Source: Pectinatus sottacetonis (GTDB lineage: Bacteria > Bacillota > Negativicutes > Selenomonadales > Selenomonadaceae). Taken from it: DNA of 64,000 bases. Under the pieces are notes generated by a model that worked only from the letters and a program-made list of their open reading frames with translations, ran no database searches and was not told the origin of the DNA. A program made the translations under genes and the position numbers. Positions 17,430-62,894 of the stretch are shown here, piece after piece; position 1 is the first letter of the stretch; the number at the start of each line of letters is the position of its first letter. The stretch is taken from the NCBI RefSeq assembly GCF_015732155.1, contig NZ_WIQK01000001.1:2242001-2306000 (forward strand). The letters run 5' to 3'.

Positions 17430-19871
17430 TTATAATTTTATTGTATGCATATGCCATATTTCTTTAGCATATTCCATAATGGTTCTGTCACTAGAAAATA
17501 TTCCCGAATGGGCTATGTTTATAAGGCTGGACATTTGCCATTCATGGGCATTGTTATATTTTTGTTGAATTTTCTGATGGGCTTGGCAGTAAGAAGGGAA
17601 GTCTTTAAAGACAAAATATTCATCATTGCTGCCAAATAGATAATTATATAAATCGCGGAAATCACCATTGCCCACAAATTCACCTGACAATAATTGGTCA
17701 ACAACATGGTGCAAATCAGGATTATTATTATATTCATCCCAAGCCGAATAATGACCGTTTTGATAATAGGATAATATTTCATTGGCATTAAGCCCGAAAA
17801 TAACACAATTATCCGAGCCTACGGCGTCATGAATTTCTACATTTGCTCCATCAAGAGTCCCTAAAGTTATGGCACCGTTCATCATAAACTTCATATTGCT
17901 TGTGCCGGAAGCCTCTTTACCAGCTGTTGATATCTGTTCACTAACATTAGCAGCAGGAAATAATTTTTCGGCGAGTGATATGCCATAATTTTCCAAAAAA
18001 ACAATTTTTAGTTTTTTATTAACTTTTTCATTGGCATTTACTATCTCGGCAACAGTGTTTATAAGACGGATAGTTTCTTTGGCGATATGGTAACTTGGAG
18101 CGGCTTTTCCCCCAAAAATAAAAGTGTGAGGAATCATTTCTAGTTCGGGATTTTCACATAATTTATTATAGAGATACATTAAGTGAAAAATATTCATTAT
18201 TTGACGCTTATATGAATGAATACGTTTTATCTGTATATCAAATATGGATAATGGATCTATTATTATACCGTTCTTATTTTTTATTAATTCAGCTAATTTT
18301 TGTTTATGACCTTGTTTGACCTGACTGAGTTTTTCTAAGGCTGCTGGGTCTTCTTTGTATTGGAGAAGTTTTATCAAGTGACTGGGATGGGTGCGCCATT
18401 TATCTGTGATTAAATCATCTATTAATGATGATAGTTGAGGATTGGAAGCCATCAGCCAGCGTCTGTGTGTTATACCATTGGTTTTATTATTGAATTTATT
18501 AGGATAGTAATCGCTGAATTGTTTCATACTGTAATTTTTTAGAATATCTGAATGGATTTTTGCTACACCATTAACACTGTGACTTCCTACAATAGCAAGA
18601 CGAGCCATATGAACAAGACCGTCTTGTAAGATGGAAAAGCTATGGATAATTTCTTCATTTTGGGGATATCTCTGGCGTACATTGATAAGAAAACGGCGAT
18701 TAATTTCTTGAATGATCAAATAAATGCGCGGCAATAGTGATTTAAACATATCTGTTGACCATGTTTCTAGAGCTTCAGGCATGATAGTATGGTTAGTGTA
18801 AGCTACAGTCCGTATTGTAATATCCCAAGCTTGCTCCCATGAGAAACCTTCTTCATCTAAAAAAATCCTCATTAATTCAGGAATAGCCATTGCTGGATGA
18901 GTATCATTTATATGAATGGCAACTTTTTCCGAAAACTGGGCTAAGGGTAAATTAGATTTTTTATAATGACGAATGATGCTTTGTACACCGGCAGATACGA
19001 GAAAATATTCCTGGGTAAGCCGGAGTTGTTTTCCTTTTTGTGAGCTATCATCCGGGTATAGACAGTTAGTAATTGCTTTTAATTGGTATTGTGATTTTAG
19101 TTTTTCTTGCAGCTGTTCATGGGTCAAAGCACCGCTTTCGGCAAAATTTTCACTTACTTCGGCATTCCATAAACGTAATGTATTTACAATGCCGTTATGG
19201 TAACCAACAATAGGCACATCATATGGAACAGCGGATACAGTAGTATAATTTTCGTAAATTGGTTTTAGATTACCATCAGGCATAGATTTCATATAAGCAT
19301 TTCCTGAAAATTTAACAATGATTTCTTTTTCGGTTTTTCTGTATTCCCAGGCAAAGCCGTTTTTTAGCCAATTATCAGGTATTTCCACCTGATTCCTATT
19401 TATTATTTTTTGCTCAAATAAACCATATTGGTAGCGAATGCTACAGCCATGGCCGGCTATTCCTAAAGAGGCCATGGAATCAATAAAACATGCTGCCAGA
19501 CGCCCTAAACCACCGTTACCAAGGCCAGCATCTGGTTCTTCTTCAAATAAGTCATCAAGATTGATTCCCAGGTCATGCATGGCGGAATAACATATATCCC
19601 CAATATTTAAGTTCATTATATTACAGTTTAATAGTCGCCCTAAAAGAAATTCTATTGAAAAATAGTAAACTTGTTTTTCTTGGTGTTCACTATAATATTT
19701 ATTGGTCTGAATCCAATTATCACTGATATATTGTCTGATAGTACTTACCAGAGCTTGATATAAATTTTCTTTGGTAAGTTCTTCCATATCGCGGCCGAAC
19801 ATTATACTGGCTGTTTGTAAAAACAAATGTTCAAATTTGTTTTTTTCTTCCAAAGCCTTGTTTGTCAACAT
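17430..19871 (-). CDS. glgP: Glycogen phosphorylase
   Basis: An 813-residue GT35 phosphorylase that releases glucose-1-phosphate from glycogen ends. GNGGLGRLAACFIDSMA lies near residue 125. The pyridoxal-phosphate site EASGTSNMKFMMNGA, with the PLP-binding Lys, is near residue 660. Full family length. It starts at ATG 19871 with GAGAGGG ten bases upstream. Placing degradation (glgP) between the synthetic genes glgD and glgB in one operon is common in Firmicutes. Confidence 0.96.
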   Translation of the reverse strand: MLTNKALEEKNKFEHLFLQTASIMFGRDMEELTKENLYQALVSTIRQYISDNWIQTNKYYSEHQEKQVYYFSIEFLLGRLLNCNIMNLNIGDICYSAMHDLGINLDDLFEEEPDAGLGNGGLGRLAACFIDSMASLGIAGHGCSIRYQYGLFEQKIINRNQVEIPDNWLKNGFAWEYRKTEKEIIVKFSGNAYMKSMPDGNLKPIYENYTTVSAVPYDVPIVGYHNGIVNTLRLWNAEVSENFAESGALTHEQLQEKLKSQYQLKAITNCLYPDDSSQKGKQLRLTQEYFLVSAGVQSIIRHYKKSNLPLAQFSEKVAIHINDTHPAMAIPELMRIFLDEEGFSWEQAWDITIRTVAYTNHTIMPEALETWSTDMFKSLLPRIYLIIQEINRRFLINVRQRYPQNEEIIHSFSILQDGLVHMARLAIVGSHSVNGVAKIHSDILKNYSMKQFSDYYPNKFNNKTNGITHRRWLMASNPQLSSLIDDLITDKWRTHPSHLIKLLQYKEDPAALEKLSQVKQGHKQKLAELIKNKNGIIIDPLSIFDIQIKRIHSYKRQIMNIFHLMYLYNKLCENPELEMIPHTFIFGGKAAPSYHIAKETIRLINTVAEIVNANEKVNKKLKIVFLENYGISLAEKLFPAANVSEQISTAGKEASGTSNMKFMMNGAITLGTLDGANVEIHDAVGSDNCVIFGLNANEILSYYQNGHYSAWDEYNNNPDLHHVVDQLLSGEFVGNGDFRDLYNYLFGSNDEYFVFKDFPSYCQAHQKIQQKYNNAHEWQMSSLINIAHSGIFSSDRTIMEYAKEIWHMHTIKL

Positions 19872-19913
19872 GCTGGTAACACCCTCTCACTTTTAATATG
19901 AATTTAAAATTGA

Positions 19914-55341: not shown

Positions 55342-55443
55342 CAGGTAAACATAAAATATTTAACCTTAATTGACAATTGTTTTTAGATTATCTATACTAT
55401 AAATAGTTGTATCCTGTTATATCGCAGCATGGGAGGGGTTTTA

Positions 55444-55686
55444 TTGTCAGCGTGCAGACGTATTGTTATTGACTTGCCGAATGAGCTGGCTGGCGAATTA
55501 GAAACATTGGCACAGGAGGAACAAACTAGTCATGAAGAATTATTGTGCAAGGCAGTTCAATGTTATATTGAAACTTGTAAGCATCTGGATAATATCGAAC
55601 AAATGAAAAAAGGTTATAAAGAAATGGGGTTAATTAATATAACTTTAGCGGAAGAAGGTTTATATGGAGGGATATCAAAAAAATGA
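55444..55686 (+). CDS. Ribbon-helix-helix antitoxin, EndoAI/MazE-like
   Basis: An 80-residue protein. The N-terminal strand [20 protein letters not shown] with following helices is the ribbon-helix-helix DNA-binding fold; the acidic C-terminal region would mask the toxin. TTG 55444 is chosen because GGGAGG (55431-55436) lies seven bases upstream. Its stop overlaps the toxin gene by 23 bases, the usual coupling for this type II pair. Confidence 0.85.
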
Positions 55687-56038
55687 CCACGTGATAAGGC
55701 GTGGTGATATTTTCTATGCGAATCTCAGCCCGGTGGTTGGTTCTGAACAGGGAGGATCGCGTCCGGTATTGGTATTGCAGAATGATATTGGTAATAAATA
55801 CAGTCCTACTACAATTGTAGCAGCGATAACTGCCCAGATTTCCAAGGCTAAGCTGCCTACACATGTAGAAATAAGGGCTGATCAATGCAATTTAGAACGC
55901 GATTCTGTTATTTTACTGGAGCAGGTACGCACTATAGATAAAAAGAGACTTCGCAATAAGATAACTACACTTGATCCAGCTATAATGAAAAACGTGGACG
56001 ATGCAATAAAAATAAGCGTTGGTTTGGTTCATTTTTAA
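55664..56038 (+). CDS. ndoA: EndoA/MazF-family mRNA interferase toxin
   Basis: A 124-residue MazF/PemK toxin that cleaves single-stranded m[33 protein letters not shown] is almost the family consensus, followed by [24 protein letters not shown] and [19 protein letters not shown]. It carries about nine extra N-terminal residues compared with common relatives; a GTG at 55691 would give the shorter form but lacks a well-spaced ribosome site. Forms a chromosomal toxin-antitoxin module with the preceding gene. Confidence 0.94.
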
Positions 56039-56305: not shown

Positions 56306-57343
56306 TTGATAAAGAAAATATTCGGGTTATTTTTAATATCACTGGTTTTTATGCAGTCAGTTTGCCTGGCAGCTTCAAGTGTAAAAGATTTTCGTTACAG
56401 TAGATTGAAACTTTCGGCAGAGGAAAATTATCTGCACATGGAAATTTCAGTAAACCATAAGCAGGAAAAATATGAGCTGCAGATAAACCCTAACAATAAA
56501 AAACAGCTTATTTTGACAATTTTTAATGCTAGATTGAAAAATGATAATTTACGAAAAGTAAAATTAGATGGTGAATTTGCTGATGATATAAAATTCAGCG
56601 AAGAAGGGAATAATGTTAAGGCATATATTTCTCTTCCAACTAATGCAGCGGAAACAAATTATAAAGCTTATATGCTTGATAAGAATAAGTATCACAGAGG
56701 AAGTTCAATATTGGCAGTTGATATCAGTAAAAAACCTGCGGTTAAACATCAAGTTAGTTTAGCGGCAATTGCTGGGCACACTATTGTAATAGATCCTGGA
56801 CATGGAGGCAGTGATTCAGGTGCTGTTGGCCCTGATGGCATAATGGAAAAGACTGTTACTTTGGCTATCGCAAAGAAAGTGGATAAAATTCTCCGCGACA
56901 ATGGGGCAATAGTTGTGATGACACGTACTACAGATAAGGATGTATATGGCCCGGATGCCACAGATGTTCAGGAACTTCAGGCGCGTGTTAATGTGGCTGA
57001 AAGAACCAAAGAAACAGATATTTTTCTCAGTATTCATGCTAACTCGTTTGTAAGTCCGTCAGCACATGGTACAGCAACTTATTATTATAGTTCTTCTGTG
57101 CGGGGAAAAAAATTGGCTGGTTTTGTTCAAAATGAGTTGATCGCTGCTGACGGATTGACAAATAGGGGTATTTCTCCAGCTAATTTCTATGTATTAAAAC
57201 ATTCTTCTGTGCCGGCTATTTTGATAGAGACGGCGTTTATTTCTAATTATAAAGAAGAACAGCTTTTAACTGAAGATAACTTTCAAATGATATTGGCTCA
57301 AGCTATTTGTCGCGGTATTAACAAATATTTTCAAAGTAATTAA
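56306..57343 (+). CDS. N-acetylmuramoyl-L-alanine amidase with AMIN-like domain
   Basis: A 345-residue exported wall hydrolase. A signal peptide (IFGLFLISLVFMQSVCLAASS) is followed by an AMIN-type beta domain (~25-140) and a zinc-dependent Amidase_3 domain: VIDPGHGGSDSGAVG (zinc His), the downstream Glu in MEKTVTLAIAKKV, LSIHANS (zinc His) and ILIETAFISN (catalytic Glu). It cleaves the amide bond between MurNAc and L-Ala, in daughter-cell separation or remodelling. TTG 56306 behind AGGAAT. Confidence 0.92.
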   Translation: MIKKIFGLFLISLVFMQSVCLAASSVKDFRYSRLKLSAEENYLHMEISVNHKQEKYELQINPNNKKQLILTIFNARLKNDNLRKVKLDGEFADDIKFSEEGNNVKAYISLPTNAAETNYKAYMLDKNKYHRGSSILAVDISKKPAVKHQVSLAAIAGHTIVIDPGHGGSDSGAVGPDGIMEKTVTLAIAKKVDKILRDNGAIVVMTRTTDKDVYGPDATDVQELQARVNVAERTKETDIFLSIHANSFVSPSAHGTATYYYSSSVRGKKLAGFVQNELIAADGLTNRGISPANFYVLKHSSVPAILIETAFISNYKEEQLLTEDNFQMILAQAICRGINKYFQSN

Positions 57344-57359: not shown

Positions 57360-57950
57360 TTGAAGCAGTTTAAAATAGTATTATTTGGATTGTTGGTTTT
57401 GACAATGGTCTTTATTGCAGGCTGTGGGAATAATAGTCAGGAGTCGGCTCAACAGGAACAGAATAATAAAATAACAGCGAATGGACAAGTTGATCAAGCC
57501 AATAAAAATAATGTTAAAAAGAAAGTAAAAACACAGCAGATAACGGTTTATTTTCCTAATGAAAACGGAGAAAAATTAATAGCAGCTAGAAGAACTATAG
57601 ATTTAACGAAAACTGATAAATATACTGCAGCTGTGCAGGAATTAGTAAAAGGACCAAAAACAGGAGAAGGTATTGCAATAATACCGAAACAGGCAAAGTT
57701 ATTAGATGTTAAGCTAAACAGCAAGGGAATTGCGATAGTAAATTTTGATAAAAATTTAGTAAAAAAATTTGTCGGCGGTTCTACGGGAGAAACAATGCTT
57801 GTCGGTTCAGTTGTAGATACGCTTACCAATTTTCCAGAAGTTAAATCAGTGGAATTCTTTGTGGAAGGTAAACAATTAGATACGTTGAGTGGACATCTCG
57901 ATTTAACAACACCTATTACAAGAATGAAGGATATTTTGCCAAATAATTGA
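57360..57950 (+). CDS. GerMN-domain lipoprotein
   Basis: A 196-residue lipoprotein. The signal peptide ends in a lipobox (VFIAGC, Cys ~22), followed by a Gln/Asn-rich linker and a GerMN (sporulation/spore germination-type) domain from ~60 (ITVYFPNENGEKLIAARR; AVQELVKGP; GIAIVNFDKNL; TLTNFPEVKSVEFFVEGK). It lies 16 bases after the amidase, so the two probably act together at the wall. TTG 57360 behind AGGAGG. Confidence 0.9.
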   Translation: MKQFKIVLFGLLVLTMVFIAGCGNNSQESAQQEQNNKITANGQVDQANKNNVKKKVKTQQITVYFPNENGEKLIAARRTIDLTKTDKYTAAVQELVKGPKTGEGIAIIPKQAKLLDVKLNSKGIAIVNFDKNLVKKFVGGSTGETMLVGSVVDTLTNFPEVKSVEFFVEGKQLDTLSGHLDLTTPITRMKDILPNN

Positions 57951-57966
57951 GGTTGGATAGAAAATA

Positions 57967-58015
57967 AAAAAATGCCATCACAGCATTGTTAAATGTCTTG
58001 TGATGGCATTTTTTT
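57967..58015. terminator. Bidirectional terminator overlapping the end of the HTH gene
   Basis: AAAAAATGCCATCACA (57967-57982) pairs with TGTGATGGCATTTTTT (57999-58014). It ends the amidase-GerMN transcript, and on the other strand includes the last codons of the convergent 508-residue regulator gene. Confidence 0.88.
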
Positions 58016-59515
58016 ATTTTCTATCCAAATACGATGGAGAAAAGAAATATTCTTTTTATAAATTTTTTCCAGTTCTTCAGCGGAAAAATTATGGCAATTA
58101 GCTTGATTTTTTTTGTCGAGAAAAAATGAATTGAATTTATTGATTAAGACAGGATTTTTTAGTAGATAGATAGTTTTGCCTTCACTGTTTAGAAAAGCTT
58201 TATTCTTTTTTAAATAGGCCGTATCGGTATTACTGTAGTATGATAGTTTAAAATAATCACTATCATTTAAAGGCTGGGATTCATTAAGTAAAAGGATATT
58301 TATATTAGGATTATTTTTCATTGATTTTATTAATTGCTGAAATTGTAGTTCCCGTTCAGTTACAGATGTTGTATAATCTATTTCTCCATAAGTCAATTTA
58401 CCATTTTCTATATAATGCATAATATTTGCTTCTGGCAAAAAAAAGTCAATATGGGCTTTTTCAAATTGTTCTTCCCAAGTTATTTGCATGTTTTGGATGG
58501 TTTGCCGCATATCAGAGGAATACTTGTATTTTACGGAAGAGTCTAAAAGTTTATTGAAAGCTTCTTTTGGCAGGAAAAATTCAAAACCCTTTGCACAAAA
58601 GATAATTAAATTATTATTTAGATAGAAAAAGGACCGAAATTTTACTAATTCAATATCATTTTTGGGCTCAATAAGATAAGTGGTATAAGAAAATTTTTCA
58701 TATGTGCGCTCCCAAATATTATTTACAATACTTTTTTCGTTTATATAAGTGCAAATGTCAATCAAATTATCATCGTGCAGTGAGTATTGCAGGGAAAAAT
58801 AATTTTTTATGACAATAATGTTGGAATTATGGAATTTTTTATTATTATGTATATGAAAATCAATGTAAATAAATTTATTAAAAAAATTATATAAATTTAT
58901 TATAAAATCAAGATTACAGTGATAGAGTTTTTCTATGCTGCAGCCAATATGTATATCGATTTTTTTAGCAGAAAAATGACAATAATTAAGAAAATCAAAA
59001 AAATAATTTTTAGTTAATAGTGTGATTATATCACCGGTTATGTATATTTCTATATTTTCTTTTATATTACTTAATAAAAGGGCAATTTTGGTATTAAAAA
59101 ACTTTTTTACATTTGTTCTGCCAATTATTGTTTGATAAGTACATGAAGGAAAATCAATATTGTTTTTAGGTGAATTAGCAGCTTGTGAATGCTGATAATA
59201 GGCGTCCATTAACATATTGTTTATTTCACTTTCTAGTGCGGTCTGAGTTTTATCACTGGAAACTTGTTTTTTTAGCTTAATATTAAATTCACTGAGAAAA
59301 GGATAAAATTGATTTTGGTTTATAATTTCATTAGCAATAAATGAAGAAATACAATTATTTATGCGGGTAATATATTTTACGGAAGGTTGATTCGTATTAT
59401 TGCACCATTTACTGATATAAGAAACATCATAACCAATAAAATCAGCAAGAGAACTTAACTTTATTCCGGAGAATTTTATTAAATGTTTTAGGACTTGCGC
59501 AAAAGTATTTTCCAT
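57989..59515 (-). CDS. Large helix-turn-helix protein of unknown family, putative regulator of the lactate genes
   Basis: A 508-residue protein. Residues 9-57 form an Xre-like helix-turn-helix (GIKLSSLADFIGYDVSYISKWCNN, with a second helix pair ending in INNCISSFI). The remaining ~430 residues match nothing I recognise; they are rich in Asn, Lys, Ile, Phe and Tyr, with no membrane helix, no obvious nucleotide-binding loop and few cysteines. It is divergent from lctP with 660 bases between, containing palindromes, so control of lactate uptake is inferred. The start ATG 59515 has only a weak ribosome site. Its last codons lie in the terminator stem. Confidence 0.65.
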   Translation of the reverse strand: MENTFAQVLKHLIKFSGIKLSSLADFIGYDVSYISKWCNNTNQPSVKYITRINNCISSFIANEIINQNQFYPFLSEFNIKLKKQVSSDKTQTALESEINNMLMDAYYQHSQAANSPKNNIDFPSCTYQTIIGRTNVKKFFNTKIALLLSNIKENIEIYITGDIITLLTKNYFFDFLNYCHFSAKKIDIHIGCSIEKLYHCNLDFIINLYNFFNKFIYIDFHIHNNKKFHNSNIIVIKNYFSLQYSLHDDNLIDICTYINEKSIVNNIWERTYEKFSYTTYLIEPKNDIELVKFRSFFYLNNNLIIFCAKGFEFFLPKEAFNKLLDSSVKYKYSSDMRQTIQNMQITWEEQFEKAHIDFFLPEANIMHYIENGKLTYGEIDYTTSVTERELQFQQLIKSMKNNPNINILLLNESQPLNDSDYFKLSYYSNTDTAYLKKNKAFLNSEGKTIYLLKNPVLINKFNSFFLDKKNQANCHNFSAEELEKIYKKNISFLHRIWIENKKMPSQDI

Positions 59516-59594
59516 ATTTATACACTTTCTATTAAATTTTTAAAGATTATTTAATTATTTATTATAAAACTGTACTCAATTATTATACTATATA

Positions 59595-59746
59595 ATTATT
59601 GAATAATATATAACAGATAATATTAAGTCTTAGTTTGCACATAATTTCCCTTGATTTAAATTGAACTTTAAAATTCAATTTAAATCAATAAAATAAAATT
59701 TAAATACCGTTAATACTTATAATTATAGGGTGAATTATTGAATAAT
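59595..59746. repeat. Two copies of a 13-base palindrome (candidate operators)
   Basis: ATTATTGAATAAT occurs at 59595-59607 and again at 59734-59746, each a 6-1-6 palindrome. The first lies within a larger imperfect palindrome at 59576-59602. Partial copies (ATTCAACAAT, ATTATTCAAG) follow. Placed about 80 and 220 bases from the regulator start. Confidence 0.5.
59651..59688. repeat. Perfect 15-base inverted repeat
   Basis: TTGATTTAAATTGAA (59651-59665), 8-base spacer, TTCAATTTAAATCAA (59674-59688). A long perfect palindrome between the two copies of the 13-base element. No T tail; operator more likely than terminator. Confidence 0.6.
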
Positions 59747-59857
59747 ACAAGTTAGAAATATTCAACAATATTATATTATAGAGAAAAAATGTAATAATAA
59801 AAAGAATATTATTAATTGATTTATTATTCAAGTTAATTTGTTGAAATATATAATGGA

Positions 59858-59887
59858 TTGACTTTTATTTATAAAAAAAATTATACT
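59858..59887 (+). promoter_or_regulatory. Sigma-A-type promoter for lctP
   Basis: TTGACT (59858-59863), 18 bases, TATACT (59882-59887). It is downstream of all the palindromes, which would therefore act as upstream regulator sites. Confidence 0.6.
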
Positions 59888-60175
59888 ATATACAGCCAAG
59901 GATGATGTATTACAAATATTTATCAATTAGGATTTCAATGATAATATAAAAAATATTTAATAAATTTACTTTTTTTTGATATATCAGATAATGTGCTGTA
60001 TACAAAAATATAAATTAAATTCTTTTCTGTTGACATGAAATAAAAGATAGGAGGGAACTAGAACCTTTATTTTAAAACGTGTGCTGGAGAATTAAGCTAT
60101 AGTAAATTTTGTGTCCAATAATGAAAGGAAGCGTAATTTTGTTTTTATATTTATTTTATGTGAGGAGAGATAAAA

Positions 60176-61933
60176 ATGTATATGCAGAATTTTGATCCGC
60201 TAAACAATATGATTTTATCAGCGCTACTGGCATTTTTACCAATTGCTTATTTTTTTATTGTACTTATTGTTTTTAAGGTAAAGGGACATTGGGCAGCCAT
60301 TTCAACAACTGTTTTGGCAATCATACTCGCCGGATGGGTATATAAAATGCCAATCATATTATCTGTGATGTCGGCAGTGCATGGTGCATTGTATGGATTA
60401 TTTCCTATTGGCTGGATAGTTATAGGAGCTGTTTTCCTATACAATATAAGTGTAAAAACAGGGCAATTTGAAATTATAAAAAAATCTATTATATCAATAA
60501 CGAATGACCGTCGTTTGCAAGTTTTACTTATTGCCTTTTCTTTTGGGGCTTTTCTGGAAGGTGCTGCTGGATTCGGAACACCTGTAGCCATCACTTCAGC
60601 AATGCTGATTGGAATGGGTTTCAAGGCAAAAAAAGCAGCCTGTCTAAGCCTTTTGGCTAATACAGCTCCAGTAGCTTTTGGTGGATTAGGTATACCGGTA
60701 CTAGTTGCTGGTCAGGTAACAGGTTTTTCAGGAGCATATCTGGCTAAATTGCTGGCGTTTATCTGTCCTATAATTGGCTTTATTGTACCATTTTACCTTA
60801 TCATAGTAATGACTGGATTAAAAGGAATAAAGGAAGTTTGGCCAGCCGTTTTAGTAACGTCAGTGTCTTTTTCCATACCTATGTGTCTGTCTTCATATTT
60901 TCTCGGGCCAATTCTCCCGGATATAGTAGCATCGCTTTGTTCAATGATTGCATTAGTTCTTTTCTTGAAAATATGGCAGCCTAAGCATATCTATAGGTTT
61001 GAAAATGAAAGTGCAGTGGAAGAAAAGCATGAAAGTTTGAGTACTAAAACAGTAATAAAGGCATGGAGTCCGTTTATTATCTTAATAATTTTCATTGCTG
61101 ATTGGGGAATGAAGAGTGTGGAAAGCTTATTAAATATGGTAAATGTTTCATTTGGTTTGCCCTATTTGAATAATGCTATTATAAATGGTACTACGAATGC
61201 TCCTATATTGGCAGTTTTTAAATTTAATTGGCTTTCAGCAGCAGGAACTGGTATTGTTTTGGCCGCATTTATGTCATGCATTATTCTGCATGTTTCCCTG
61301 GGAAAATCTATAAGTATCTTTGGTTCTACATTAAATGAACTTAAAATAGCTTTACTAACAATAAGCGGAGTATTGGCATATGCATATGTAGCAAATAATA
61401 GTGGTATGACAACAACAATGGGGCTTGTCGTATCTAAAACAGGTAAATGGTTCCCGTTATTTGCGCCTATCGTTGGTTGGCTTGGAGTCTTTGTAACAGG
61501 TTCCGATACTTCAGCAAATGCTCTGTTTGGTAAACTGCAGACTACAGCATTCCAGGCGGTTGGTATACTACCTGTTATGGGAATTGGTGCCAATCTGGCC
61601 GGTGGTGCTGTTGGTAAAATGATTTCACCTCAGTCTATTGCTATTGCAGCGGGAACTACAGGACTGACAGGAAAAGAAGGGGAAATCTATAAATTCAGCA
61701 TAAAACATTCAATTATATTGCTTACAATGATATGTTTGATAATGTTCTTTTATAAAGACTTATTTGTTTCACTACTGGCAGGAGAAAGTGGGAAAATGGC
61801 TGCTCCTATGGCAGCAGCAAATGTTGTTTCGAGTACAGGAGTAATAATATTATTAGTATCCTTTATTGTCATTTTCTTAGCAAGGTTTATGCTTCATGAT
61901 GATGAAAATGGACATAATTATAAATTGCAATAA
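60176..61933 (+). CDS. lctP: L-lactate permease
   Basis: A 585-residue LctP-family transporter with about 13 membrane segments. GAFLEGAAGFGTPVAITSAMLIGMGF (~123-148) and PIVGWLGVFVTGSDTSANALFGKLQ (~430-455) are the conserved family segments. It imports lactate (or glycolate) with protons. ATG 60176 follows GAGGAGAG. The next genes encode lactate-oxidation proteins, so the locus takes up and oxidises lactate. Confidence 0.95.
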   Translation: MYMQNFDPLNNMILSALLAFLPIAYFFIVLIVFKVKGHWAAISTTVLAIILAGWVYKMPIILSVMSAVHGALYGLFPIGWIVIGAVFLYNISVKTGQFEIIKKSIISITNDRRLQVLLIAFSFGAFLEGAAGFGTPVAITSAMLIGMGFKAKKAACLSLLANTAPVAFGGLGIPVLVAGQVTGFSGAYLAKLLAFICPIIGFIVPFYLIIVMTGLKGIKEVWPAVLVTSVSFSIPMCLSSYFLGPILPDIVASLCSMIALVLFLKIWQPKHIYRFENESAVEEKHESLSTKTVIKAWSPFIILIIFIADWGMKSVESLLNMVNVSFGLPYLNNAIINGTTNAPILAVFKFNWLSAAGTGIVLAAFMSCIILHVSLGKSISIFGSTLNELKIALLTISGVLAYAYVANNSGMTTTMGLVVSKTGKWFPLFAPIVGWLGVFVTGSDTSANALFGKLQTTAFQAVGILPVMGIGANLAGGAVGKMISPQSIAIAAGTTGLTGKEGEIYKFSIKHSIILLTMICLIMFFYKDLFVSLLAGESGKMAAPMAAANVVSSTGVIILLVSFIVIFLARFMLHDDENGHNYKLQ

Positions 61934-62300
61934 GGATTATTAATTAGATTTTATCCAAACGAATGAAGTTATACTCTTTTGTCTTCGGATACAGTAAAAG
62001 TAATAACAAGAGAGTATAACGCAGTTCAAAATTATGGCAGTTTTATCCATGGTATGGTTGTGTGCGGGTATTATGTTTATGAGTCTTAGATATGAGCGTT
62101 TAAATGGGAGCCGTATACTTGTGACTTTAGTCGTGAGTTAGGGTGTAAAAAACCATAGAAACTATGATGATAACCTGTGAGGTTAAGAGATTTATTATAA
62201 TTATGGCAGATTAAAAAAACAAAATACTAGTATACGATGGCTATATATTAGGCATTAAAAGATGGTAATTTAATGATTATAAAACGAGGAGTGAGGCATC
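61934..62300. other. lctP-lutC gap with several hairpins
   Basis: 367 bases. It holds an inverted repeat GTTATACT (61968-61975)/AGTATAAC (62013-62020) with a short inner pairing, then the IS605-like segment described separately, then AT-rich DNA up to the GAGGAG before lutC. No protein gene is supported; a 36-codon open frame (62034-62141) covers the hairpin region but has no ribosome site. Confidence 0.5.
62085..62190 (+). mobile_element. Possible remnant of an IS200/IS605 right end (omega-RNA-like hairpins)
   Basis: A G-rich island in AT-rich DNA: GGGAGCCGT, then the stem CTTGTGAC-TTTA-GTCGTGAG (62118-62137; 8 pairs counting G-U), AGTTAGGGTG, and two small hairpins CATAG-AAA-CTATG (62154-62166) and AACCT-GTG-AGGTT (62172-62184). 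The GACTTTAGTC-type hairpin followed by AGGGTG resembles the 3' scaffold found at the end of tnpB genes in IS605-family elements. No tnpA or tnpB reading frame remains. The identification rests on memory of such ends. Confidence 0.4.
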
Positions 62301-62894
62301 GTGAAAAAAATATGTCATGAATGGCAGAAATATTTGGATAAAGGTTTTATAGATAAAAAATATTGGGAAAGTTTTAAAGAAAATGCGCAGGCTGCTTCAG
62401 TGGAATTAAAAGAAATAAAAAGCTATGATGAAGCATTACCGATAATAGAGGCTTTAATAGATGAAGTGAATGCACAGAAACTTGCCGGAGTTGGACAGGA
62501 TGATTCAAAGGCTATAATGAACATATACCATGAGCTGGGGAAAAAACATCAGATTTATACGGATAAATTTGCTATAACTGAAAATGCCCCTATTCTTGAT
62601 ATTGGTATTTCTACTGCTGAGTTTGGTGTTGGAGAAACAGGGAGTATTTGTGTTGATAATTATTCATACGAAGCTAGACTTGTAAGTATGCTGCCACCAA
62701 TAAATATTGTTTTTATGAATAAAAACAATATTGTTGATACAATGACAGAAGCTTTTGAAATATTGGAACAAGTATTTGATAAAGGATATACTGGTTTTGT
62801 AACGGGACCAAGCCGGACATCTGATATTGAAAGAGTTTTGACATTAGGAGTTCACGGACCAAGCAGATTGATATTATTTGCAGTAGATGAATAG
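62301..62894 (+). CDS. lutC: LutC-like LUD-domain protein (lactate utilisation)
   Basis: A 197-residue LUD-domain protein of the LutC/YkgG family. Characteristic stretches are DIGISTAEFGVGETGSICVD (~100-119), LPPINIVFMNKNNIV and TGPSRTSDIERVLTLGVHGPSRL (~165-187). With LutA and LutB it oxidises L-lactate to pyruvate by an iron-sulfur route in the cytoplasm. GTG 62301 follows GAGGAG. It precedes lutB by 11 bases. Confidence 0.92.
   Translation: MKKICHEWQKYLDKGFIDKKYWESFKENAQAASVELKEIKSYDEALPIIEALIDEVNAQKLAGVGQDDSKAIMNIYHELGKKHQIYTDKFAITENAPILDIGISTAEFGVGETGSICVDNYSYEARLVSMLPPINIVFMNKNNIVDTMTEAFEILEQVFDKGYTGFVTGPSRTSDIERVLTLGVHGPSRLILFAVDE

Follow-up and report, generated by a model that had tools for sequence, protein, structure and literature searches.

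A 64 000-nucleotide stretch of the Pectinatus sottacetonis genome (contig NZ_WIQK01000001.1, positions 2,242,001 to 2,306,000; hereafter the window) encodes a 508-residue protein that carries an N-terminal helix-turn-helix (HTH) and is divergent from a lactate operon, lctP-lutC-lutB. We propose, with moderate confidence, that it is a one-component regulator in which an XRE-type HTH is joined to a phospholipase D (PLD)-like sensor that has lost the HKD motif, and that it stimulates the lactate operon and adjusts its own synthesis. Its family would be an undescribed group of one-component regulators of fermentation operons, probably activators. One-component regulators are already known as a kind, as is the PLD-like core of archaeal TrmB. 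If the proposal is correct, bacteria have put a PLD-type enzyme fold to use as a sensor, much as TrmB indicates for archaea, and a name can be given to proteins in which the library models tried find an HTH at most. A candidate regulator, its sites and its regulon come together here and are open to direct testing.

The regulator and its predicted fold

The regulator, its parts and the presumed target genes are as follows.

57989–59515, minus strand: regulator gene, 508 aa (open reading frame (ORF) listing, orthologues, AlphaFold2 (AF2) model and fold comparison)
Regulator residues, as predicted: ~1–66, XRE-type HTH; then a linker helix; ~124–286, first PLD-like half; ~302–501, second half, of similar strand and helix order
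60176–61933, plus strand: lctP, L-lactate permease, presumed target (PF02652, E 5.9e-168)
62301–62894, plus strand: lutC-like LUD protein, presumed target (LUD domain match)
from ~62897 to beyond the window end, plus strand: lutB, 724 aa, with LUD, CCG and Fer4 domains

The regulator ORF has an ATG start and 508 codons, with exactly the coordinates given in the initial annotation, which was made from the sequence alone. It stays open at 59–64% identity in all four other Pectinatus genomes searched (G001–G004, the own genome being G000) and at 45% in one genome of another genus of the host family (G090), so this is a real gene and not a chance ORF. The four orthologue species, drawn from a species-representative collection, are Pectinatus cerevisiiphilus, P. 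haikarae, P. frisingensis and P. brassicae. The frame, the orthologues and the Pfam domain matches together confirm the annotated ORF, its HTH and its divergence from lctP-lutC-lutB.

When the single protein was searched, only residues 17–52 matched Pfam (HTH_3, E 1.5e-4, 22.2 bits, cut-off 23), the NCBIfam match, to the RstR HTH, lay far under its cut-off, and a PDB sequence search gave nothing significant. A 35-row profile searched against the PDB found short HTH-length stretches only, leaving the C-terminal part unplaced by sequence. HTH_3 was matched by 12 of the 35 family members at E ≤ 0.01 (best 1.2e-5); the alignment places an HTH on each full-length chain, and the recognition-helix region is nearly identical throughout (GYDxSYxxKW). 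Structural alignment of the N-terminus with VIA-align yielded XRE/HigA-type chains at Z-scores of 8–9 (for example 7zvi, Z 9.2, 3.2 Å, 93 residues). On the basis of these matches and the predicted structure, we class the N-terminus as an XRE-type HTH.

The fold work rests on an AF2 prediction from 35 sequences (pLDDT 85.1, pTM 0.70); a model from five sequences was poor (pLDDT 55), and even then Foldseek pointed to PLD. Against the PDB, Foldseek placed PLD-superfamily enzymes at the top (7e0m, E 3.2e-8), in alignments to PLD enzymes that span 400–490 columns, with TrmBL2 at rank 17 and TrmB at rank 41. VIA-align matched NucT (Z 9.9, 3.5 Å, 142 residues, regulator 123–281) and TrmB (3qph, Z 9.1, 3.7 Å, 134 residues, regulator 123–284); the absence of a family from the VIA-align table does not exclude that family. 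Residues ~123–285 thus have a PLD-like half-domain fold in the predicted model. Residues 302–501 show a similar strand and helix order there, the VIA-align rows covering mainly residues 1–284, and the C-terminal region as a whole is probably a pair of PLD-like half-domains. The initial annotation had described an Xre-like HTH protein with a large unplaced soluble domain, which might be of a new type and might sense lactate, redox or another ligand. The analysis supports an Xre-type regulator with a large uncatalogued soluble domain, but not the novelty of that domain. Of the two approaches proposed to place it, sequence searches gave nothing for the C-terminal part, while structure prediction gave a PLD-like fold, found by both Foldseek and VIA-align to be as in archaeal TrmB.

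The HxKx4D form of the HKD motif is absent from 34 of the 35 sequences, the window protein included, and the lone match (L057) is at residue 466 of 492, near the C-terminus. Outside the HTH, R294, R388, K436, K437, W347, Y106 and Y450 are among the residues that are invariant or nearly so; of these, R388, K436 and K437 are invariant and R294 is near-invariant. The family, which joins an XRE HTH to probably two PLD-like halves and has pathway-specific paralogues, matches no Pfam or NCBIfam model tried.

Conserved sites in front of the lactate operon

Lactate genes form the divergent operon in all six orthologue loci. Three Pectinatus have the order lctP-etfB-etfA-lctD-lutC-lutB, the window species and G001 have lctP-lutC-lutB, and G090 has lutC-lutB-etfB-etfA-lctD, with no lctP in the operon. 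On its far side the regulator of G090 adjoins a different gene, so general synteny does not explain the link with lactate. The regulator and the operon are separated in the window by a 660-bp divergent intergenic region (59516–60175). Alignment of the six such regions revealed three blocks, A, B and C, common to all of them; those of the window are listed with the likely promoters.

59661–59694, no strand assigned: block A, TTGAAC-N6-ATTCAA plus AATCAATAAAA; in 6/6 regions, degenerate in G090; right part also at the dld gene described below
59731–59765, no strand assigned: block B, TGAATTATTGAATAATACAAG...ATATTCAA; overlaps the regulator's own likely promoter
59722–59750, minus strand: likely regulator promoter, −35 TTGTAT (59745–59750), 17-bp spacer, −10 TATAAT (59722–59727), read by eye
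59825–59841, plus strand: block C, TATTCAAGTTAATTTGT; 31–32 bp upstream of the lactate −35 in 6/6 regions
59858–59887, plus strand: likely lactate promoter, −35 TTGACT (59858–59863), 18-bp spacer, −10 TATACT (59882–59887)

In its general form, block A is a TTGAAT-like word, a 6-bp gap and an ATTCAA-like word, followed by AAATCAA. Block B has the shared form TGAATTnTTGAATAAAACAAG and, in the Pectinatus species, overlaps both the −35 and the spacer of the likely regulator promoter; block C, with the shared form ATTCAAGnnAATTTG, precedes a likely promoter resembling TTGACT/G-17/18-TATNNT. The spacings are conserved too. TTCAAG of block C is separated from the −35 by 31 or 32 bp in each of the six regions and at the promoter of the own dld gene, with an additional TTGACT 9 bp nearer to block C in L009. 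The B–C distance, again with the own dld promoter included, is 87–89 or 98–99 bp, values one helical turn apart, while the A–B distance is 53–56 in the intergenic regions versus 98 at the own dld. TTGAAT/ATTCAA words were counted 28 times in the 350 bp upstream of the six orthologue genes, where 4.8 were expected and the maximum of 300 simulations was 13. A pattern for two adjacent half-sites, TTGAATNNTTGAAT, had no match in the own genome because block B of the window deviates from it.

Two side observations concern the operon. In the window, positions 61934–62300 form a 367-bp gap between lctP and lutC, at the place where three sister species have etfB-etfA-lctD; no etf or lctD remnant was found in this gap, and the LctD homologues of the own genome lie elsewhere on contig C1. 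In G004, EtfB matches as two separate pieces of 202 and 70 aa (L006:12181–12970), which a frameshift or an error of assembly may explain. Downstream of the lactate −10, positions 59889–60002 of the window also hold TATACAGC and GCTGTATA, an inverted pair ~100 bp apart that is not evident in the other species of the intergenic alignment.

A second presumed target

Scanning the own genome with the block C consensus gave, among the matches listed, a zero-mismatch site on contig 2; the window's own site is absent from the listed matches and was recovered by a separate scan. This match alone was followed, because the counts at three or fewer mismatches (127 + 136 listed) were little above those of a reversed control (102 + 124). 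The site lies upstream of a gene for a 957-aa FAD/Fe-S dehydrogenase with FAD_binding_4, FAD-oxidase_C and Fer4 domains, which we call dld. We use 'D-lactate-dehydrogenase-like' as a presumptive label, since NCBIfam gave only sub-cut-off matches to D-2-hydroxyglutarate dehydrogenase and GlcD. The domains fall within a set given just before FMN-dependent L-lactate dehydrogenase in an excerpt of PMC8914356 that does not carry the label of that set; PF09330 and PF02754, which the excerpt includes in it, were not found in the 957-aa protein. Upstream of block C, the promoter of the own dld also carries block B and the right part of block A; the B–C distance is 87 bp, and C is 32 bp from the −35. 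The neighbouring upstream gene, on the same strand, presumably encodes PEP carboxykinase and not a regulator.

A model (R1) built from seven promoters, that of the own dld included, was run over six genomes. The own genome held two sites, at 58.2 and 42.6 bits, followed by a next match at 12.1, and no strong site at its LctD homologues. Outside the model, R1 found sites immediately upstream of the orthologous dehydrogenase in G001 (C26, 35.8 bits, E 2.2e-8) and, weakly, in G003 (C19, 18.6 bits, E 0.005), where C to −35 is 22 bp, one helical turn shorter. A- and B-like words at these two dld genes are visible by eye only. In G090, no dld orthologue was found at the threshold used. A model of blocks A and B (R2) gave no further strong site in the six genomes. 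These sites suggest that the regulon probably comprises the divergent lactate operon and, in two of the five Pectinatus species and probably a third, the dld-like gene. The lactate link that had been annotated is thus real in the regulator's own clade, with 6/6 loci and similar sites at this unlinked gene.

Distribution of the family and operators of its paralogues

The regulator was found in five of the 60 genomes of a relatives search, all Pectinatus and counting the own genome. A profile search of the host family matched eight of 189 genomes, namely the five Pectinatus, G090 with a full-length member and two with an HTH only. The class-wide search covered 380 genomes and matched 24: full-length members were present in 18 (five Pectinatus, G090 and 12 genomes of f4, a second Negativicutes family that holds paralogues of the regulator) and an HTH only in six. 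Family f4 contributed 31 hits, one of them TGA-interrupted and one partial. The resulting alignment (A3, 35 sequences, mean column identity 47% over its whole length) omits L060, the same regulator as L059 with a TGA-interrupted copy nearby, and L067, a near copy of L065, and retains the partial L076; members are mostly 484–530 aa long. In a tree of 35 proteins (A3 minus L076 plus L099, introduced below), the lactate clade was separate (100/100) and the f4 paralogues clustered by neighbourhood.

No LctP or LutBC was found in the adjoining stretch examined at the 31 f4 loci (E ≤ 1e-10), the nearest exceptions being EtfBA-like hits at 38–39% in L049 and an LctD-like hit at 33% in L053. Instead, prdC and prdA are divergent from the regulator in all six loci of a 'prd' clade (L059, L062, L066, L069, L072 and L075), with a prdB-like gene visible in four, and a crotonase gene is divergent in all 10 loci of a 'cro' clade that include the promoter side, followed by an acyl-CoA dehydrogenase gene in the six where this could be seen. 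Gene families were named from one representative per cluster: the prd genes matched TIGR04481, TIGR04480 and TIGR04483 above cut-offs, and the crotonase and acyl-CoA dehydrogenase fell below the cut-offs of their best models. L064 had been labelled 'prd' in advance but belongs to the 'cro' clade; it lies tail-to-tail with its prd genes, the contig ends before its promoter side is reached, and the 16 loci considered here do not include it. The regulator adjoins lactate genes with conserved promoter sites in all six orthologue loci and its paralogues do not. The expectation that homologues always sit beside lctP or lut genes therefore holds for the orthologue clade (with lut and no lctP in G090) and fails for the wider family, and a constant association with lactate genes is rejected. 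D-proline reductase genes (prdC, prdA and some prdB) thus occur in these Negativicutes genomes; the open PMC literature on Megasphaera with proline reductase yielded nothing related.

Upstream of the prd and cro regulators (16 loci) we found an operator, TCCT[GA]TTT..., of the related TCCTGTTT form, which resembles block B on the opposite strand (CTTGTTTTATTCAA). In 14/16 loci this cousin operator is followed, at a distance of exactly 28 nt, by a −10-like hexamer of the divergent operon; the distance is 27 nt in L055, and in L066 no −10 passed the test. A search of the 12 f4 genomes for the operator plus −10 pattern, allowing one mismatch, gave 15 matches and a reversed control none. All but one of these (14/15) lie 142–245 bp upstream of a family member, and they occur in nine of the 12 genomes, with none in G345, G346 and G347. 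Two matches were new: in G332 one precedes the TGA-interrupted copy, and in G342 one stands where a contig ends, before a gene for acyl-CoA dehydrogenase. Within these 12 genomes, where the other 13 matches are loci that supplied the pattern, it is highly specific. The 12 f4 loci that belong to neither the prd nor the cro clade do not share the operator, four of them having 11–12/13 matches at differing places, and TTGAAT/ATTCAA words upstream of the f4 regulators are not clearly above shuffled sequence (24 versus 16.2, largest 27). The TGA-interrupted paralogue itself (L059/L060, G332:C112:40535–41974) is a curiosity, in that the operator and −10 pattern remain intact before it.

A sample of the phylum matched in 20 of 398 genomes, of which four were known Pectinatus or f4, one held a new full-length member (G727) and 15 matched mainly at the N-terminus. 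We used 13 loci: L099 (G727), L102 (a shortened ORF) and eleven with proteins of 485–570 aa, aligned as A4; three short N-terminal matches (G456, G711 and G713) were left out. Profile–profile comparison of A3 with A4 (hhalign) covered 462 columns (probability 98.1%, E 7.8e-14). The A4 proteins resemble the regulator in this full-length match and in having no family model beyond the HTH: Pfam found an HTH at most, plus a weak DUF3987 match in one of the eleven, and NCBIfam nothing in any of them. They differ in identity (~17%) and in their varied neighbourhoods, in which no lactate or prd genes were seen, as read from sequence starts. In the order to which G727 belongs, eight of 194 genomes have members at E ≤ 1e-15, one holding an internal stop. 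In two of the eight, G727 and G885, both outside the class, the member comes after a set of 2-hydroxyacyl-CoA dehydratase genes; in the other six the visible neighbours differ or the contig ends.

Taken together, the evidence tips us only just in favour of a large uncatalogued bacterial superfamily, in Negativicutes and other Bacillota, whose members would combine an XRE HTH with a dead double PLD as metabolite sensor. They would share a similar recognition helix and related operators, form subfamilies for individual pathways (lactate oxidation, D-proline reductase, crotonase/acyl-CoA dehydrogenase and 2-hydroxyacyl-CoA dehydratase) and act as activators from operators that lie in place of the −35 or beside it.

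Proposed mechanism and alternatives

In the mechanism we propose, the N-terminal HTH would bind half-sites of the TTGAAT/ATTCAA type, and the PLD-like region without HKD would serve as effector-binding and oligomerization domain, a role suggested by archaeal TrmB. The regulator would occupy blocks A, B and C in the divergent region and the sites at the dld-like gene. In the presence of a ligand, be it lactate, another 2-hydroxy acid or a product, it would most likely stimulate the lactate promoter from block C; from block B, over its own −35, it would limit or adjust its own synthesis. Activation seems to us fairly likely, and is favoured over repression or looping because the cousin operators replace the −35 at fixed spacing and block C lies at a fixed distance upstream of the lactate −35. 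Since both presumed targets would oxidize or import such a compound, the likely ligand in this clade, as a first guess, is lactate or a related 2-hydroxy acid.

Several observations weigh against this proposal. A site over the −35, as in block B and the cousin operators, is equally a repressor's place. Profile and sequence comparison of the two PLD-like halves detected no similarity and no repeat, and the second half is without separate support from the structural aligner. The word-count and operator statistics are optimistic, because the blocks and the cousin operator were defined by viewing the same sequences; 13 of the 15 pattern matches are loci that yielded the pattern. Block B is weaker in G090 and L009. 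At the second target, the 18.6 bits of the G003 site are little above unrelated matches in other genomes (16.1, the highest in any of the six, 15.8 and 15.4), G002 and G004 have the gene without the sites in its promoter, R2 found nothing at the dld loci of G001, G002, G003 and G004, and even the own dld blocks, with their A–B distance of 98, came only fourth in its ranking (E 3.6). Lastly, an LctD homologue (E ≤ 1e-80) is present in 66 of 189 host-family genomes and the full-length regulator in only six, so the regulator is not needed for lactate use in general.

The ligand could instead be a general one. All paralogues might answer one common redox or energy signal, such as NADH, acyl-CoA or a CoA thioester, and differ only in their targets, an idea compatible with either activation or repression. 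They do adjoin pathways of differing chemistry that take up or provide electrons (D-proline reductase, crotonase/acyl-CoA dehydrogenase, lactate oxidation and 2-hydroxyacyl-CoA dehydratase), and the invariant R388, K436 and K437 with the near-invariant R294 would suit an anionic ligand. However, the conservation of A3 is modest and the clades track the neighbouring operons, as expected if each senses its own substrate, and we regard a common signal as unlikely, if a serious contender.

Repression is the other possibility, and one we doubt: bound at A, B and C, the protein would loop the DNA and shut the lactate operon and its own gene until a ligand releases it. LutR and LldR are repressors released by ligand in this way, and many XRE proteins repress. 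Block B overlaps the regulator's own likely −35/−10 region, and the variation of the B–C distance by one whole helical turn between species would fit looping. Against this, block C stands 31–32 bp upstream of a good −35 (TTGACT or TTGACG) with no promoter overlap, and the cousin operator takes the place of the −35 at a fixed spacing to the −10 (14/16), which is the layout of an activator-dependent promoter.

Finally, it is highly improbable that the PLD-like part is still an enzyme (a nuclease, phosphodiesterase or transferase) and the gene not primarily one for a transcription factor: the nearest folds are mostly PLD enzymes, but an active enzyme is rejected by the absence of HKD (its single occurrence being near a C-terminus), every full-length chain carries an HTH and conserved candidate operators lie in the adjacent promoters.

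Comparison with known systems

By analogy of architecture, the nearest functional counterpart of the proposed activator is archaeal TrmB. TrmB, TrmBL1 and TrmBL2 share with it an N-terminal HTH and a C-terminal core resembling one PLD half (3qph). The defining domains of TrmB are PF01978 (HTH) and PF11495 (effector domain); the Pfam scan found neither of them in the window protein or the 35 members, and the family described here differs in being bacterial, in its XRE HTH and in having probably two PLD-like halves. In PMC4158304, TrmB-type members are described as binding a small effector and acting as repressor, activator or both. The PLD enzymes (Nuc/NucT, phospholipase D and phosphatidylserine synthase) share the fold of residues ~123–285; the regulator, unlike them, lacks the HKD motif and has an added HTH.

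LutR, LctA and LldR are GntR/FadR proteins, with a GntR HTH plus an FCD domain, and likewise adjoin lct or lut clusters. LctA, termed a LutR regulator, adjoins the lct cluster of A. soehngenii in the excerpt of PMC8914356. A GntR/LutR identity is rejected for the present protein, in which neither Pfam nor NCBIfam found such a domain. Lambda CI, ComR and Rgg, with which it shares the XRE HTH, are XRE-family activators, and some stimulate transcription from near the −35. To our knowledge their C-terminal domains differ and none is PLD-like. Among the matches listed from the open PMC literature there was no paper on the regulator family or on a PLD-type XRE regulator, and no description of the regulation of lactate or proline fermentation in Negativicutes such as Pectinatus.

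Neighbouring genes

On its other side the regulator is flanked by a gene pair (56306–57343 and 57360–57950), presumably for an amidase and a lipoprotein, which is kept beside it in other Pectinatus loci. Further out, positions 55429–56038 of the window hold two small overlapping genes that we take to be a MazEF-type antitoxin and toxin; a 125-aa gene lies at a matching distance in the four other Pectinatus loci. In G090, the regulator is separated from its neighbour by a gene that is presumably IS200-type transposase-like (L021:8118–8567); a second gene, at 19442–19891, encodes the identical protein.

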